The notes under the pieces were generated by a model. It had not been told where the DNA came from. It searched no databases and saw only the letters and a list, made by a program, of their open reading frames with translations. DNA of 64,000 nucleotides from positions 558,001 through 622,000 of the forward strand of contig NZ_CP154467.1 in NCBI RefSeq assembly GCF_039545455.1, in the 5' to 3' direction. Made by a program: the position numbers and the translations under genes. This document shows, in pieces, positions 21,578-41,307 of this stretch (positions are counted from its first letter, which is position 1; every line of letters starts with the position of its first letter). The stretch comes from Brucella sp. BE17. Its GTDB lineage: Bacteria; Pseudomonadota; Alphaproteobacteria; Rhizobiales; Rhizobiaceae.

Positions 21578-22914
21578 TTAAAGCGGCGGCAGCAAAGCCT
21601 GAAGGCCAACCAGCAGGTAACCCAGCGGGCAAGGACCAGACTGCGGAAAAACCTCTGAAATCCGGGCCTTTTTCGGCTTTCGAGCGGATGATTGCCTGGC
21701 GATATCTGCGTGCGCGCCGCCGCGAAACGTTTATTTCGGTGATTGCCGGTTTTTCCTTTACCGGCATCATGCTCGGCGTTGCAACGCTCATCATCGTCAT
21801 GGCGGTGATGAACGGCTTTCGCGCTGAACTTCTGACCCGAATTCTTGGGATCAACGGCCATCTTATCATGCAGCCCATCGACCGACCGCTCGATGACTAT
21901 GCCGATCTCATCAAGCGCATCGACGGTATTTCCGGCGTGCAGTTCGCCATTCCCGTGGTCGAGGGGCAGGCGCTTGTGCAGGGCAATGTCGGTGCTGGCA
22001 GCGGCGCATTGATCCGGGGCCTTCGCGAGGAAGACCTCGACAAGCTCAAGCTCGTCTCCACCAATATCCGGCAAGGGTCGCTGCAAGGCTTTGATCAAAG
22101 CGGCGGCGTGGCGATTGGCACGCGCATGGCGGAAAATCTGGGGCTTACGATTGGCGATACGCTGCGCGTGATTTCTCCCGATGGCGATGTGACGCCCTTT
22201 GGCGTCAATCCGCGTGTCAAGGCTTATCCGGTGGTGGCGATTTTTGAGATCGGCATGTCGGAATATGACAATTCGATTGTCCTGATGCCGCTTTCCGAAG
22301 CGCAGCTTTTCTTCAATCAGGAAGACAAGGTGCAGTCGCTGGAGATATTCGTCAATAATCCTGACAAGGTCGATGCGATGCGTGCGCCCGTTGAACAGGT
22401 GGCAGCGCGCCAGCTCAATATGGTCGACTGGCGACAGCGCAACCAGACGTTCTTCTCAGCGCTTGAAGTCGAGCGTAATGTGATGTTCATGATCCTGACG
22501 CTGATCGTGCTGGTGGCCGCTCTCAATATCATTTCCGGCCTCATCATGCTGGTGAAGGACAAGGGCCACGATATAGCGATCCTGCGCACCATGGGCGCGA
22601 CACGGGGCGCTGTGATGCGCATCTTTTTGATGACGGGCGCTGCCATCGGCGTCACCGGTACGGTTGCGGGCGTGGCGCTCGGCGTACTGGTTTGTCTCAA
22701 TGTGGAGAGCCTGCGGCAATTCTTTTCGTGGCTTTCGGGAACGACATTGTTCAACCCCGAACTCTATTTCTTGAGTCAGTTGCCGGCCAAAATGGACCCG
22801 GGGGAGACGATCTCGGTGATCCTTATGGCGCTTGTCCTATCTTTCATCGCCACCATTTTCCCGGCCTGGCGTGCTGCCAAGCTCGATCCGGTCGAAGCAT
22901 TGAGGTATGAATAA
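21574..22914 (+). CDS. lolC: lipoprotein-releasing ABC transporter permease (LolC/LolE type)
   Basis: Inner-membrane permease that extracts mature lipoproteins for transfer to LolA. The 446-residue protein has a polar N-terminal extension (about 35 residues), a first helix ending near [18 protein letters not shown], a large periplasmic domain and three C-terminal helices of the FtsX fold ending in [18 protein letters not shown]. With a single permease gene here, it probably forms a homodimer with LolD (LolF-like arrangement), which is inference. It overlaps both proS (ATGA) and lolD (TAATG). Confidence 0.92.
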
Positions 22915-23597
22915 TGGCGGCTGAAGTGATCCTGCGGCTGGAAAAGGTCAGCCGTGCCTATAAGGAAATCGACCGCGAACTGGTTATTCTGAAGGATACC
23001 GATTTCACGTTGAGACGCGGTGAGATGGTGGCGCTGGTTGCCCCATCGGGTGCGGGTAAATCGACGCTTCTCCATACGGCTGGTTTGCTTGAGCGACCCG
23101 ACAGCGGCGATGTTATTCTTAATAACCATTCCTGCGGTGCGCTTTCCGATGATGAGCGCACATCGGTGCGCCGCAACGATGTCGGCTTTGTCTATCAGTT
23201 CCACCATCTGCTGCCGGAATTTTCCGCTCTGGAAAATGTGATGATGCCGCAGATGATCCGCGGCCTGTCAAAACAGGCCGCACAGGAACGTGCTCAGCTT
23301 CTGCTCGAATATATGAAAATCGGCAAGCGCGCCTCGCATCGCCCGGCAGAACTGTCGGGCGGCGAGCAACAGCGTGTGGCAATTGCGCGTGCGGTGGCCA
23401 ATGCGCCGCTGGTGCTGCTGGCCGACGAGCCCACCGGCAATCTCGACCCGACCACATCCTCTTATGTTTTTGGTGCGCTGGAGGCGCTGGTGAGACAATC
23501 GGGACTGGCAGCCCTGATTGCTACCCACAATCACGCACTGGCTGAGCGTATGGATCGCCGCGTCACGCTGAAGGACGGCAAGGTCGTCGACCTTTAA
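22914..23597 (+). CDS. lolD: lipoprotein-releasing ABC transporter ATP-binding protein
   Basis: Cytoplasmic ATPase partner of the LolC/E permease. Walker A is APSGAGKST at residues 43-51; the signature [14 protein letters not shown] and Walker [14 protein letters not shown] are intact. 227 residues is the normal length. The ATG overlaps the permease stop codon. A wobble-rich hairpin with a T-run follows about 55 bases downstream. Confidence 0.95.
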
Positions 23598-23652
23598 AAA
23601 GGTGGCGCTGCGCATTCCGTCGTAATGCACTCAGCTCTGATACCTTTGATAT

Positions 23653-23688
23653 AGCCTGCTGGCGTTTTTTCGCTGGCGGGTTGTTTTT
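23653..23688 (+). terminator. intrinsic terminator after lolD
   Basis: A 12-bp stem (23653-23664 with 23671-23682, several G-T wobbles) with a six-T loop is followed by GTTTTT. It separates the proS-lolCD unit from the SOS-type promoter and the small ORF that follow. Confidence 0.6.
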
Positions 23689-23731
23689 ACTATTCGTAAA
23701 CCCTAAAATAAAGGGAGTCGCAGAACAGGCA

Positions 23732-23760
23732 TTGACATTGGAACAAAAATAGAACAAATA
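23732..23760 (+). promoter_or_regulatory. promoter with embedded LexA (SOS) operator
   Basis: TTGACA (23732-23737) is a perfect -35 hexamer; 17 bases on, CAAATA (23755-23760) is a possible weak -10. Between and over them lies GAAC-N7-GAAC (23741-23755), an exact match to the alphaproteobacterial LexA box (GTTC-N7-GTTC on the other strand). LexA bound here would block RNA polymerase. Additional GAAC half-sites occur at 23723 and 23773. The promoter points at the 28-codon ORF starting at 23794 and, beyond it, dnaE1. Confidence 0.75.
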
Positions 23761-23793
23761 ATAAACATACGTGAACAAAGAGGAGTTATCCCC

Positions 23794-23880
23794 ATGACCG
23801 ATCTCATCTACGATGTTTTGTCCTTCGTTTCCGTCAGCCTTTTCGTTGCCACCTTTGCTATTTGGGTGAGCGTTATCTGA
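23794..23880 (+). CDS. 28-residue SOS-controlled membrane peptide (SidA-like candidate)
   Basis: ATG at 23794 follows an AGAGGAG ribosome site and TGA ends at 23880. The peptide begins MTDLIYDVLSF and continues VSVSLFVATFAIWVSVI: one hydrophobic helix with two acidic residues before it and no basic residues. The upstream promoter holds a consensus LexA operator, so the peptide should be made only after DNA damage. Caulobacter SidA is a LexA-controlled inner-membrane peptide of about 29 residues that stalls cell division through FtsW; this peptide matches it in size, topology and control. Homology at sequence level is not shown here. Alternatives are a leader peptide for dnaE1 or a small toxin-like peptide. 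Confidence 0.7.
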   Translation: MTDLIYDVLSFVSVSLFVATFAIWVSVI

Positions 23881-24069
23881 ACATAAAATCCCGGTTTCTC
23901 TTGTGCATCCGTGCGATGAGAGGCCGCTTTCTCTGGACTTCGTTCAAGCATTCCCTGAAACTGATCCGGGAGCGGCAAGAGTCGCTCCTCTCGTCGTCAT
24001 CCTGAATGACGATGTTCTTCTGGTGATATTTTTGCCAGTTTGGTTTGGTACGTGATCGGGGTCGATAAA

Positions 24070-27000
24070 ATGAGTGATGCAGCAAGCGCAGGGCTATCGA
24101 CGTCAGTTGTTGTGACGACGCCCCGCTTTGTACATCTGCGTGCGCACTCCGCCTATTCCCTGCTCGAAGGCGCCTTGCAGGTCGGAAAAATCATCAAGCA
24201 GGCCGTTGCCGATGAAGCACCAGCCATTGCGATTACCGACACCAACAATCTTTTCGGCGCGCTCGAATTCGCGCAAAAAGCTTCCAAGGAAGGGTTGCAA
24301 CCGATTATCGGCTGTCAGCTGGATGTTGGTTTTGGCGACCATAGCGACAATGGCCGCAGTGCCAATCGCAGGCTGGCACTCGACCTCGCCCCTATGGTGC
24401 TGCTTGCAGCAACGGAAGAAGGCTACGCCAATATCGTGCGGCTGGTTAGTCGCGCCTATCTTGATACACCTGCGGGCGATCCCGTGCATATCGAGGCGAA
24501 TTGGCTTGCAGAGCTCTCCAGAGATGTGATCCTTTTAACGGGCGGACCGCTTGGTCCCTTAGGCCGCTCTTTCACTGCCGACCGCCCGGACAGGGCGCGG
24601 GCGCGTCTTACGTATCTGAAGGAGTATTTCGGCGACCGTCTCTATGTCGAATTGCAGCGCCAGTCCGGTTATGATCGGGGGCTTGAGGCAAAAACCATCG
24701 CAGCCGCCTATGATCTGCAATTGCCGCTGGTTGCCACCAATGAAGCCTTTTTCTTGCAATCGGAGGATTTTGAGGCTCATGACGCGCTTCTGGCCATTGC
24801 CGAGGGGCAAATTCTGTCCAATGACAATCGCCGCCGCCTGACGCCTGATCATTATCTGAAAAGCCGCGCGGAGATGGCCAAGCTTTTTGCAGACTTGCCC
24901 GAAGCACTCGAAAACACTGTGGAGATTGCGCTGCGCTGCCATTGGTACACGCAAACGCGCAAACCGATCCTGCCGCGTTTCACAGGCGAATCGGACGACC
25001 CGGAAGCAGCCGTTGCCGCCGAAGCGAGCGAACTGGCGCGGCAGGCCCGCGAAGGCCTTAGAATGCGTCTGGATACCGTCGGTCTCGCCGATGGTTACAC
25101 CGAGCAACACTATGCCGAGCGTCTCGAATATGAGATCGGTATCATAACCCGCATGAAGTTTCCGGGTTATTTTTTGATCGTTGCCGACTTCATCAAATGG
25201 GCCAAAGCCCATGACATTCCGGTCGGGCCGGGGCGCGGTTCGGGTGCCGGTTCGCTGGTGGCCTATGCGCTCACCATTACCGATGTCGATCCGTTGCGCT
25301 TCTCACTGCTGTTCGAGCGCTTCCTCAATCCCGATCGCGTATCGATGCCCGACTTCGATATCGACTTCTGTCAGGACCGCCGCGAAGAGGTGATCCGCTA
25401 CGTGCAGGAGAAATACGGGCGCGAGCAGGTGGCGCAGATCATCACCTTCGGTACGTTGCAGGCACGTGCTGTGCTGCGTGATGTCGGTCGCGTGCTTGAA
25501 ATGCCGTATGGGCAGGTGGACCGGCTGTGCAAGCTGGTGCCGCAGAACCCGGCTAATCCGGTATCGCTGGCTCAGGCCATTGATACCGAACCCAAAATTG
25601 TCGAGGAACGCGACAAGGAGCCGGTGGTCGGACGTCTGCTTGACATGGCACTGAAGCTCGAAGGCCTGTACCGCCACGCCTCGACCCATGCGGCCGGTAT
25701 CGTGATTGGTGACCGTCCGCTCTCGGAACTGGTGCCGATGTATCGCGATCCGCGTTCCGACATGCCGGTCACCCAGTTCAACATGAAATGGGTCGAGCAG
25801 GCGGGGCTGGTCAAGTTCGACTTTCTGGGCCTGAAAACGCTGACGGTTCTGGACACGGCAGTTAAGCTCGTCGCCCGCAAGGGCATCAAGGTTGATCTTT
25901 CGCATCTGCCGCTTGATGACGAACCGACGTATGAGATGCTCTCGCGCGGCGAAACGGTCGGCGTGTTCCAGGTGGAAAGTGCCGGTATGCGCAAGGCGCT
26001 GCTTGGCATGCGTCCCGACCGGATCGAGGATATTATCGCACTTGTGGCGCTTTATCGTCCCGGTCCCATGGAAAACATTCCGACCTATAATGCGCGTAAG
26101 AACGGCGAAGAGGAAATTGCTTCCGTTCACCCAAAAATCGATCATCTGATCAAGGAAACGCAGGGCGTTATCGTTTATCAGGAACAGGTGATGCAGATCG
26201 CGCAGGAGCTTTCGGGCTATTCGCTCGGTGAAGCCGATCTCTTGCGCCGTGCCATGGGTAAGAAAATTCGTGCCGAAATGGACCAGCAGCGCGTGCGTTT
26301 CGTCGATGGTGCGCTTGAAAACGGCCTCGACAAGGCGCAGGCGAATATGATTTTCGACCTGCTTGCCAAGTTTGCCGATTACGGTTTCAACAAATCGCAC
26401 GCGGCAGCCTACGCCATCGTTTCCTACCAGACCGCCTATATGAAGGCGCATTATCCGGTCGAGTTTCTGGCCGCCTCGATGACCTATGATATGTCGAATA
26501 CAGACAAGCTCAATGATTTCCGCCGCGAGGCCAATCGTCTGGGCATCGAGGTGGTGCCGCCTTCGGTCATGACCTCCTTCCGCCCGTTTGAGGTGGGTGA
26601 AAAGCAGATTTTCTATTCGCTCGCAGCCATCAAAGGCGTGGGTGAGGCGGCAGTCGATCACATTGCCGATGTGCGTGCGCAAAAGCCCTATGAAAGCCTT
26701 GAGGATTTTTGCGAGCGCGTTGATCCTAGGATCGTCAATCGCCGGGTGCTCGAAAGCCTGATTAATGCCGGTGCCATGGATTGTTTCGGGCGTGAGCGTC
26801 CGGCCATGAGTGCGGGCATGGATCGCATCATGGGCTTTTCCCAGCGCACCCAGGAAAACGCGGCAAGCGGCCAGTCGGATATTTTTGGCCTTTCGGGCGC
26901 ACCGAAGGAAACACTAATTCTGCCGCAGGCCGCTCCCTGGTTGCCATCGGAAATGCTGCATCGCGAATTTCAGGCGGTCGGCTTTTATCTTTCCGCCCAT

Positions 27001-27564
27001 CCACTCGATGAATATCGCTCCGTGCTCGATCGAATGCGCGTTCAAAGCTGGGCCGATTTTTCTGCAGCCGTCAAACGCGGCGCCAATGCGGGGCGTCTCG
27101 CAGGCACGGTGACAGCGCGGCAGGAACGCAAGACGCGCACCGGCAACAAGATGGGCATCGTGCAGTTTTCTGACGCGAGCGGTCAGTTCGAGGGCGTGCT
27201 GTTCTCGGAAGGTCTGGCGCAATATCGCGATCTTTTGGAAAGCGGCAAGTCGGTGGTCATCACGGTTCAGGCCGAAGATCGCCCGGAAGGGATCGGCCTG
27301 CGTATCCAGACGGTACAATCGCTGGAGGACGAAGCCTGCCGTATGCAGAAGGCACTCAGGCTTTATCTGCGCTCAGCCGAAGCCGTTCGTCATATTGCCC
27401 CGCATTTCAACACGCGCGGCGATGGTCAGGTGAGCCTGATCGTCATCAAGGAAAATGGCCAGCGCGAAGTGGAGATCGAACTGCCGCATCGCTATCGCGT
27501 CAGCCCGCAGATCGCCAGTGCCATGAAAGCTATTCCGGGCGTGATCGATGTCGAGCTTGTTTAA
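24070..27564 (+). CDS. dnaE1: DNA polymerase III alpha subunit, replicative
   Basis: Catalytic subunit of the replicative polymerase. The N-terminal PHP domain starts VHLRAHSAYSLLEGA; the polymerase domain carries GPGRGSGAGSLVAYAL and the catalytic aspartates in MPDFDIDFCQDRR; helix-hairpin-helix and OB-fold regions follow toward the C-terminus. At 1164 residues and located next to lolCD (the usual alphaproteobacterial place), it is the replicative DnaE1; the mutagenic DnaE2 is normally found with imuA-imuB. I chose ATG 24070 (MSDAASAG); an in-frame start at 24040 is possible. The SOS-type promoter 300 bases upstream may add damage-induced transcription. Confidence 0.94.
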   Translation: MSDAASAGLSTSVVVTTPRFVHLRAHSAYSLLEGALQVGKIIKQAVADEAPAIAITDTNNLFGALEFAQKASKEGLQPIIGCQLDVGFGDHSDNGRSANRRLALDLAPMVLLAATEEGYANIVRLVSRAYLDTPAGDPVHIEANWLAELSRDVILLTGGPLGPLGRSFTADRPDRARARLTYLKEYFGDRLYVELQRQSGYDRGLEAKTIAAAYDLQLPLVATNEAFFLQSEDFEAHDALLAIAEGQILSNDNRRRLTPDHYLKSRAEMAKLFADLPEALENTVEIALRCHWYTQTRKPILPRFTGESDDPEAAVAAEASELARQAREGLRMRLDTVGLADGYTEQHYAERLEYEIGIITRMKFPGYFLIVADFIKWAKAHDIPVGPGRGSGAGSLVAYALTITDVDPLRFSLLFERFLNPDRVSMPDFDIDFCQDRREEVIRYVQEKYGREQVAQIITFGTLQARAVLRDVGRVLEMPYGQVDRLCKLVPQNPANPVSLAQAIDTEPKIVEERDKEPVVGRLLDMALKLEGLYRHASTHAAGIVIGDRPLSELVPMYRDPRSDMPVTQFNMKWVEQAGLVKFDFLGLKTLTVLDTAVKLVARKGIKVDLSHLPLDDEPTYEMLSRGETVGVFQVESAGMRKALLGMRPDRIEDIIALVALYRPGPMENIPTYNARKNGEEEIASVHPKIDHLIKETQGVIVYQEQVMQIAQELSGYSLGEADLLRRAMGKKIRAEMDQQRVRFVDGALENGLDKAQANMIFDLLAKFADYGFNKSHAAAYAIVSYQTAYMKAHYPVEFLAASMTYDMSNTDKLNDFRREANRLGIEVVPPSVMTSFRPFEVGEKQIFYSLAAIKGVGEAAVDHIADVRAQKPYESLEDFCERVDPRIVNRRVLESLINAGAMDCFGRERPAMSAGMDRIMGFSQRTQENAASGQSDIFGLSGAPKETLILPQAAPWLPSEMLHREFQAVGFYLSAHPLDEYRSVLDRMRVQSWADFSAAVKRGANAGRLAGTVTARQERKTRTGNKMGIVQFSDASGQFEGVLFSEGLAQYRDLLESGKSVVITVQAEDRPEGIGLRIQTVQSLEDEACRMQKALRLYLRSAEAVRHIAPHFNTRGDGQVSLIVIKENGQREVEIELPHRYRVSPQIASAMKAIPGVIDVELV

Positions 27565-31989: not shown

Positions 31990-32865
31990 ATGCCAGCTTT
32001 CGATCAAGACATTGCCGCAGATGGTGGCGACGGTTGCCATCCGCTTTTCCGCGACGTGCCTACAACGGTTGAATTCAACAAGCTGCGCAAGCGGCTTTTG
32101 CGGCTCACACGACAGGCGCTTGATGATTTTGCCATGGTGAAGCCCGGTGAGCGCTGGATGGTTTGTCTTTCAGGCGGCAAAGATTCCTATGGCCTGCTAG
32201 CGCTGCTGCTCGATCTTAAATGGCGCGGGCTTTTGCCTGTAGAGCTTCTGGCCGTCAATCTGGATCAGGGCCAGCCGAATTTCCCAAAGCATATCCTGCC
32301 GGAATTCCTCAATCGCTATGGCATCGAACACCGTATCGAATATCAGGATACCTATTCAATCGTCACAGAAAAACTGCCAGAAAATAGCACCTATTGTTCG
32401 CTATGCTCACGTCTGCGCCGCGGCAATCTTTACCGCATTGCACGTGAAGAAGGCTGTTCGGCGGTGGTTCTTGGCCATCATCGCGAAGACATTCTCGAAA
32501 CTTTTTTCATGAACCTGTTTCATGGCGGGCGGCTAGCCGCCATGCCGCCCAAGCTTGTCAATGATGAGGGTGATCTGATGCTGTTCCGTCCGCTTGCCTA
32601 TGCGGCGGAAGAGGATATGGAAAAATTCGCGACTGCCATGCAATTCCCGATTATTCCCTGCGATCTTTGCGGCAGTCAGGAAGGCCTGCAGCGCAATGCG
32701 ATGAAGGCCATGCTGGCGGATATTGAAAAGCGCATGCCAGGACGCAAGGATACGATGATCCGTGCTATGACCAATGTGCGCCCGAGCCATCTGCTCGACC
32801 GAAAACTGTTCGACTTTGCGGGGCTTACCATTTCTGGTGACGAGGATATTGCAATTGCGGTTTGA
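31990..32865 (+). CDS. ttcA: tRNA 2-thiocytidine(32) synthetase
   Basis: Thiolates cytidine 32 in certain tRNAs using ATP and an iron-sulphur cluster. The PP-loop is [13 protein letters not shown], the cluster cysteines are in [14 protein letters not shown], and the conserved [19 protein letters not shown] follows. 291 residues. I prefer ATG 31990 ([14 protein letters not shown] upstream) over the in-frame ATG at 31927, which lies inside the rpsD terminator. Confidence 0.93.
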
Positions 32866-40656: not shown

Positions 40657-41307
40657 TCAGGCAAGGTGGGGCATGAAGGATTTGAGCCCGTCGCTCATCT
40701 CGTTCCATATGCGTTCAAAAGCTGGATGTTGCGGCGCTTTTGCGGCATAGGCGTCAAATTTCGGAAAATCATCGAGTAAATCTGTGCGACCTGAAAGTTT
40801 CTTGAACGGCTCCATCAAAAAGCGCACCGGCAATAGCCACGCATCGGCAAAGGTCGGGGTGTTTCCCAGGGCGTAATCGTGCCTGTCCGAAAGACGTGAT
40901 TCGACAAATTTCAATCCGGAAATCTGCTTTTCAAATAGTCTTTCAATGGTGGTCGTATCGCGGCCAGATTTGCTTAGAAGAATAAACAATCGCATTGTTT
41001 CCCGCAGTACATCTTCTTCCGCAATGCGGGCGAGCAGCCGGATCAGCGCGCGTTCGCGTGGGCTGCCGGGCAAAAGCGAGATTTCGGGAAAATGATCTTC
41101 CAGATATTCATTGATGACAACGGCCTCGAACAGCGTTTCGCCTGATGAGGTTATGAGAACCGGAATGCGCTTCAAGGGTGCGACTTCGCCAAAATCAGCA
41201 GGCGTGGGGTAGGGCTGGGCGATCGGTTTGAACGGCAGTTCCTTGACATAGAGGACACTGCGCACCGCAGCGCAATAAGGCGAAAGAGGCCGATTATAAA
41301 GCTGCAT
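40657..41307 (-). CDS. glutathione S-transferase family protein
   Basis: A 216-residue GST-like protein. The thioredoxin-fold N-terminal domain reads MQLYNRPLSPYCAAVRSVLY and keeps the cis-proline and ES-like glutathione contacts (RIPVLITSSGETLFEAVVINEYLED); the all-helical C-terminal domain has TPTFADAWLLP. The SPYC segment suggests a Ser or Cys catalytic residue, as in omega/beta-like classes. ATG 41307 follows GGGAGC. Substrate unknown. Confidence 0.9.
   Translation of the reverse strand: MQLYNRPLSPYCAAVRSVLYVKELPFKPIAQPYPTPADFGEVAPLKRIPVLITSSGETLFEAVVINEYLEDHFPEISLLPGSPRERALIRLLARIAEEDVLRETMRLFILLSKSGRDTTTIERLFEKQISGLKFVESRLSDRHDYALGNTPTFADAWLLPVRFLMEPFKKLSGRTDLLDDFPKFDAYAAKAPQHPAFERIWNEMSDGLKSFMPHLA

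Follow-up and report, generated by a model that had tools for sequence, protein, structure and literature searches.

Does the short open reading frame (ORF) directly before dnaE1 in Brucella sp. BE17 encode a relative of SidA, the division inhibitor of Caulobacter crescentus? The window analyzed here comprises 64,000 nucleotides (nt) of contig NZ_CP154467.1 (positions 558,001 to 622,000), and the ORF lies at 23794..23880 on the + strand, behind a predicted LexA-type operator. SidA is described as an SOS-induced inner-membrane protein of 29 residues, which blocks division via FtsW and interacts with FtsN as well (PMC4211646). A sequence-only reading of the window had proposed a SidA-like candidate by size, topology and control. 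That proposal is supported, and a match of the family profile with the Caulobacter peptide encoded before dnaE1 adds support for homology. Judged from sequence comparison, the window gene is very probably the sidA orthologue of its lineage, repressed by LexA and released by damage, and its peptide would hold the late divisome inactive. The conserved frame, the operator, the position ahead of dnaE1 shared by many lineages and the profile similarity to the Caulobacter peptide are directly supported.

The ORF, read directly and borne out by the profile and substitution analyses below, translates into MTDLIYDVLSFVSVSLFVATFAIWVSVI, a peptide of 28 residues. Its grand average of hydropathy is 1.79, and the best 19-residue segment, starting from residue 10, reaches 2.16. 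SidA, with about 29 residues and a single membrane helix, is thus matched by 28 residues and one predicted helix, as had been claimed. The ribosome-binding site GAGGAG (23780..23785, + strand), 8 nt before the ATG at 23794, is as good as it was said to be. The predicted operator GAAC-N7-GAAC, GAACAAAAATAGAAC, occupies 23741..23755 on the + strand and starts 53 nt 5′ of the start codon. A −35-like TTGACA (23732..23737, + strand) starts 9 nt 5′ of the operator. The window peptide and two further members matched no family in Pfam and NCBIfam at E≤10, and the window peptide had no match among the PHROG models at E≤0.01.

The frame is widespread in the family. A single-sequence search gave matches in 104 of 151 family genomes (E≤10), and a profile of 32 rows found 147 of the 151 at E≤1 and 124 at E≤1e-3. 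The four genomes lacking a profile match (G005, G044, G076, G091) are all small, 1.4–2.0 Mb, as if the gene were lost in reduced genomes; G072, also small (1.9 Mb), still matches well and keeps it. Compared with eight relatives, the window frame differs mostly at third codon positions, and the ratio of nonsynonymous to synonymous substitution (dN/dS) is 0.06–0.16 in the six of eight pairs with unsaturated dS. The peptide frame is under purifying selection that acts on the amino acids. In the alignment of 32 members M1 and F17 are invariant and D7 is nearly so; family-wide, F17 is retained together with an acidic residue at about position 7. The length is exactly 28 residues in 94 of 100 family loci, a figure that is partly by construction because the choice of start codons favored 28 residues.

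These 100 loci are the basis of the operator counts. Matched family places were read at 110 positions, some further weaker or secondary places being left unread, and ten were excluded before counting, namely nine copies lacking an exact box (L031–L036, L053, L059, L097) and L085, which lies at a contig end. The exact operator occurs within 120 nt of the peptide start in 92 of the 100 loci (92/109 with the nine boxless copies counted in). Of the remaining eight, six have a box with one mismatch and two only a box with two mismatches. The LexA operator expected of a SidA gene is thus present with at most one mismatch in 98/100. Mononucleotide shuffles of the same loci gave a mean of 0.36 exact boxes and a maximum of 3, and control patterns with other half-sites or spacings gave 0–4; the same half-sites at spacings of 5, 6, 8 and 9 were found in 0, 4, 0 and 1 loci, respectively. 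Promoter sequences could be aligned for 90 loci, two of the 92 boxed ones having fallen out. In 63 of these, TTGAC or TTGCA begins 9 nt 5′ of the box; another 18 have neither sequence in the 16 nt leading up to it. Ten loci (L016, L018, L019, L020, L026, L027, L253–L255 and L313) have an overlapping operator pair that shares one half-site, GAAC-N7-GAAC-N7-GAAC, which in some lineages might make control by LexA tighter or graded. In the operator region of Bradyrhizobium and relatives (L260–L263, L266, L268, L269, L271), the second GAAC is also followed by inverted GTTC half-sites.

A single operator alone proves nothing, because exact sites occur in the genome near background frequency. The whole genome has 125 exact GAAC-N7-GAAC, compared with 113 for the pattern read backwards, and the window has 3, compared with 1.94 expected. 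The other two in the window, at 32456–32470 and 40702–40716 (− strand), are within chance expectation, and most exact boxes of this genome, these two included, are likely due to chance. Such numbers would suit the view that a chance ORF happens to follow a chance operator. That view is refuted by the conservation of both frame and operator across families, and its remaining probability is negligible; it is decisively conservation, not the lone site, that lifts the operator above chance. The sequence-only reading would have been undermined by a frame broken in close relatives while the operator stayed; instead the two are conserved together. The motif itself fits the window organism, since GAACAAGACTGGAAC lies about 76 nt upstream of the start of its own LexA-type gene. 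The product of that gene matches PF00717, and its N-terminus looks like that of LexA.

Whether the operator serves the peptide or the polymerase gene was decided by the neighbors. In the window, dnaE1, encoding the DNA polymerase III alpha subunit, lies downstream at 24070..27564, and a gene for a LolD-type ABC ATPase lies upstream at 22914..23597, both on the + strand. The former is a frequent, not constant, downstream neighbor of the peptide, and the latter a frequent upstream one. A terminator-like hairpin of 14 pairs (23651..23684, + strand) stands between lolD and the peptide unit, and because it follows lolD the peptide gene looks like a unit of its own. In the family, dnaE1 is downstream in 56 of the 100 loci and unseen in the downstream stretch that was read in 44, of which 43 have the exact operator. 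By class, the exact operator is kept in 34/38 loci with both neighbors, 15/18 with dnaE1 only, 29/30 with lolD only and 14/14 with neither; the lolD-only class includes G077, at a contig edge, and G018, whose ABC gene shares only 29% similarity with LolD. Where dnaE1 is not downstream, the longest frame 3′ of the peptide is often on the opposite strand.

Peptide and dnaE1 are apart in 30 genomes, 28 of the lolD-only class and two (G073, G026) of the 14 with neither neighbor. The exact box is present at 29 of these 30 peptide loci, and within 500 nt upstream of the separate dnaE1 (397 nt in one genome) it is present in none of the 30. The operator therefore goes with the peptide, dnaE1 being no more than a neighbor. 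Control of dnaE1 by the operator was rejected, the peptide keeping the operator without dnaE1 and the separate dnaE1 being without it. The earlier suggestion that it makes functional sense for such a peptide to be encoded beside the replicative polymerase finds no support in these counts.

The same data bear on the possibility that operator and promoter serve dnaE1, with the small ORF as a leader or upstream open reading frame (uORF) that tunes polymerase synthesis. The position before dnaE1 in 56 loci would agree with it, and so would PMC10117765, which names sORF25, a translated small ORF in the dnaE1 5′ untranslated region of Sinorhizobium meliloti, among possible uORFs. A leader of this kind is already contradicted by the operators kept without dnaE1, by the split genomes and by selection on the amino acids of the peptide, and we consider it very improbable. 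Translation of sORF25, formerly unannotated, was detected by ribosome profiling (PMC10117765). In the lolD–dnaE gap of S. meliloti Ak57 no coding sequence is listed, in one record whose gene table may be incomplete, and the gap contains two overlapping exact boxes and a 28-residue homologue of the window peptide. This homologue is the only ORF of 20–60 residues on the same strand after the LexA promoter in the gap, and sORF25 is likely the S. meliloti homologue of the window peptide. Ribosome profiling, which had been suggested as a check on the window ORF, thus shows a translated ORF at the corresponding place in S. meliloti, the identity with the peptide being likely only.

To follow the peptide beyond the family, dnaE1-upstream stretches were taken from 40 genomes of the order, 20 of the class and 30 named genomes, giving 90 loci. 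The 60 order and class loci were picked by hand from 120 and 149 matches, respectively, mostly one per family, and the named genomes were reached via ctrA loci and picked from 80 of these. A profile built from family peptides only was run on the 5,421 ORF segments of the 90 loci. Ranks 1 to 40 all went to small ORFs before dnaE1, each from a different locus and each in the orientation of dnaE1; six of them (L253–L258) are closely related to the training set. The first unrelated match had an E value of 0.77. The forty include Bradyrhizobium, Rhodopseudomonas, Afipia, Tardiphaga, Ancylobacter, Devosia, Phenylobacterium and Asticcacaulis, and four of the five named Caulobacter loci. Among the latter, 17J65-9, hibisci and D5 have E values of 0.017–0.02. 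When eight Caulobacteraceae peptides were shuffled, the real score was reached in 0–2 of 2,000 trials each. The iterated profile found 51 of the 90 loci (order 21/40, class 3/20, named 27/30), none on the opposite strand; the box within 130 nt is exact in 43 of these and has one mismatch in 8. At a few more loci, a small hydrophobic ORF scoring under the profile threshold comes after a box. The place of the peptide before dnaE1 is conserved in many alphaproteobacterial lineages.

In the genus Caulobacter a query from Caulobacter itself matches 60 of 61 genomes, and 30 loci were returned for counting. The peptide has 29 residues in 30/30, partly by construction through the choice of start codon. 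Within 80 nt the box is exact in 15/30 and has one mismatch in 15/30, while shuffles gave 2.0 of 30. Directly 3′ of the peptide lies dnaE1 in 29 of the 29 loci checked. Published sources give C. crescentus dnaE as CC1926, recN as CC1983 and uvrA as CC2590 (PMC1839093), recN and uvrA as ccna_02062 and ccna_02673 (PMC12700426) and sidA as CCNA_02004 (PMC11034885). The offsets between the two numberings are 79 for recN and 83 for uvrA, so CCNA_02004 should lie at or beside dnaE CC1926. By length, place and control, the Caulobacter peptide before dnaE1 is very probably SidA. The window peptide, directly before dnaE, then has the place of sidA, the position of sidA itself being deduced from gene numbers. 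The two are alike in length (28 and 29 residues), in the one hydrophobic helix, in the LexA-type boxes upstream and in the place directly before dnaE1, and sequence homology is modestly indicated by the family profile against the Caulobacter peptides. The relation of the window gene to SidA thereby moves from analogy to probable orthology.

Several points weigh against this orthology. The profile match to Caulobacter is modest, about 13 bits, and individual shuffles can attain such scores. Caulobacter BK020 has an E value of 0.56 and Phenylobacterium 0.18; Caulobacter AP07 (8.5) and Brevundimonas poindexterae (1.3) stand among unrelated matches. The iterated profile has no match in 39 of the 90 loci, including Hyphomicrobium, Brevundimonas bacteroides, Robiginitomaculum and 17 of the 20 class-level loci. 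The peptide center differs between the rhizobial and Caulobacter lineages, FATFAIW versus FVWMM. Where LolD is seen in Caulobacter, it ends 1.1–1.4 kb upstream of the peptide, so in that genus the peptide is closely linked to dnaE1 alone. The identity of SidA in Caulobacter is taken from length, place and control, and the case for the window gene is built on sequence. As for the promoter, TTGACA followed by the exact operator stands as first described, but the scan of the locus gave no sigma-70 match and the −10 element is poor.

For the working of the gene, we infer LexA binding, damage induction, membrane insertion, a divisome target (FtsW) and division arrest. LexA would bind at the operator, directly after the −35 hexamer, and keep the gene off. 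Upon DNA damage, RecA filaments would lead to self-cleavage of LexA, and the gene would be released. The 28-residue peptide, with its acidic N-terminus, would insert as a single helix into the inner membrane and bind the late divisome at FtsW, perhaps FtsN. It would silence septal wall synthesis until LexA is back in place, making the arrest reversible.

A membrane toxin induced by SOS, like TisB or DinQ, that lowers the membrane potential and does not act on the divisome could be built in much the same way. TisB fits the same pattern of size, single helix and LexA control, and a structured leader is typical of such toxins. The pattern fits E. coli DinQ too (PMC3567139). However, sequence and genomic place tie the peptide to SidA, and the window peptide is without any charged residue after D7. 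Its leader is short, the 38 nt from the 3′ end of the operator to the start codon leaving little room for structure, and the region 23500–24200 matched no family in Rfam. A toxin of this kind is quite improbable.

A true orthologue could also have shifted its main target, for example to FtsN or the polar elongation machinery rather than FtsW. Rhizobiales grow from the pole, which would favor such a shift, and the central helix differs between the lineages. SidA contacts both FtsW and FtsN in two-hybrid assays (PMC4211646). On the other hand, both F17 and an acidic residue around position 7 are kept in the family, and the Caulobacter peptide has E7 and F17. We give a shifted target a small but real chance.

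Other division inhibitors resemble the predicted SidA orthologue in part. DidA of C. crescentus is a small damage-induced inhibitor with a single helix, but it has 71 residues, is SOS-independent and works through FtsN (PMC4211646). YneA of Bacillus, SosA of Staphylococcus and ChiZ of Mycobacterium, compared by description, are damage-induced membrane inhibitors of division with predicted or shown action on FtsW; YneA differs by a LysM domain, and SosA, without LysM, has an extended helix (PMC13396833). With a probable SidA-type gene in rhizobia, it becomes testable how a large bacterial group pauses division during DNA repair. The gene and operator are in most of the 151 family genomes, without a Pfam or NCBIfam model, and this makes a damage checkpoint of plant symbionts and pathogens directly testable. 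The deep alignment (M1, F17, D7) helps ask how a helix of 28 residues switches off the septal wall synthase.

The nine boxless copies are additional family peptides. For eight of them the same genome has a boxed copy; the ninth, L053, adjoins a DUF5131 gene and is from G008, whose other match lies outside the places read. The copies at L031 and L032, both from genus relatives and both at 2001–2096 of their loci, lie beside a DUF3799/exonuclease VIII gene (Pfam, PHROG). Their surroundings look like phage-type regions, and by sequence the phage-like region may carry its own division inhibitor. If it is of phage type, the element could halt host division outside SOS. Two query peptides, one from a boxless copy and one rhizobial, had no match in named phage genomes. 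Tentatively, and with rather less than even confidence, we suggest that SidA, far from being peculiar to Caulobacter, was already the SOS brake on division in the ancestors of Caulobacterales and Hyphomicrobiales, its operator kept through synteny breaks, and that mobile elements captured operator-less copies, by which a phage or conjugative element would time host division arrest itself. The boxless copy L033 adjoins a weak Mob_Pre match, below the model cut-off. Together with L034 and L059 it belongs to the more divergent boxless copies (G050, G142), and G142 has five profile matches. Frames near these three copies resemble XRE regulators, by eye only.
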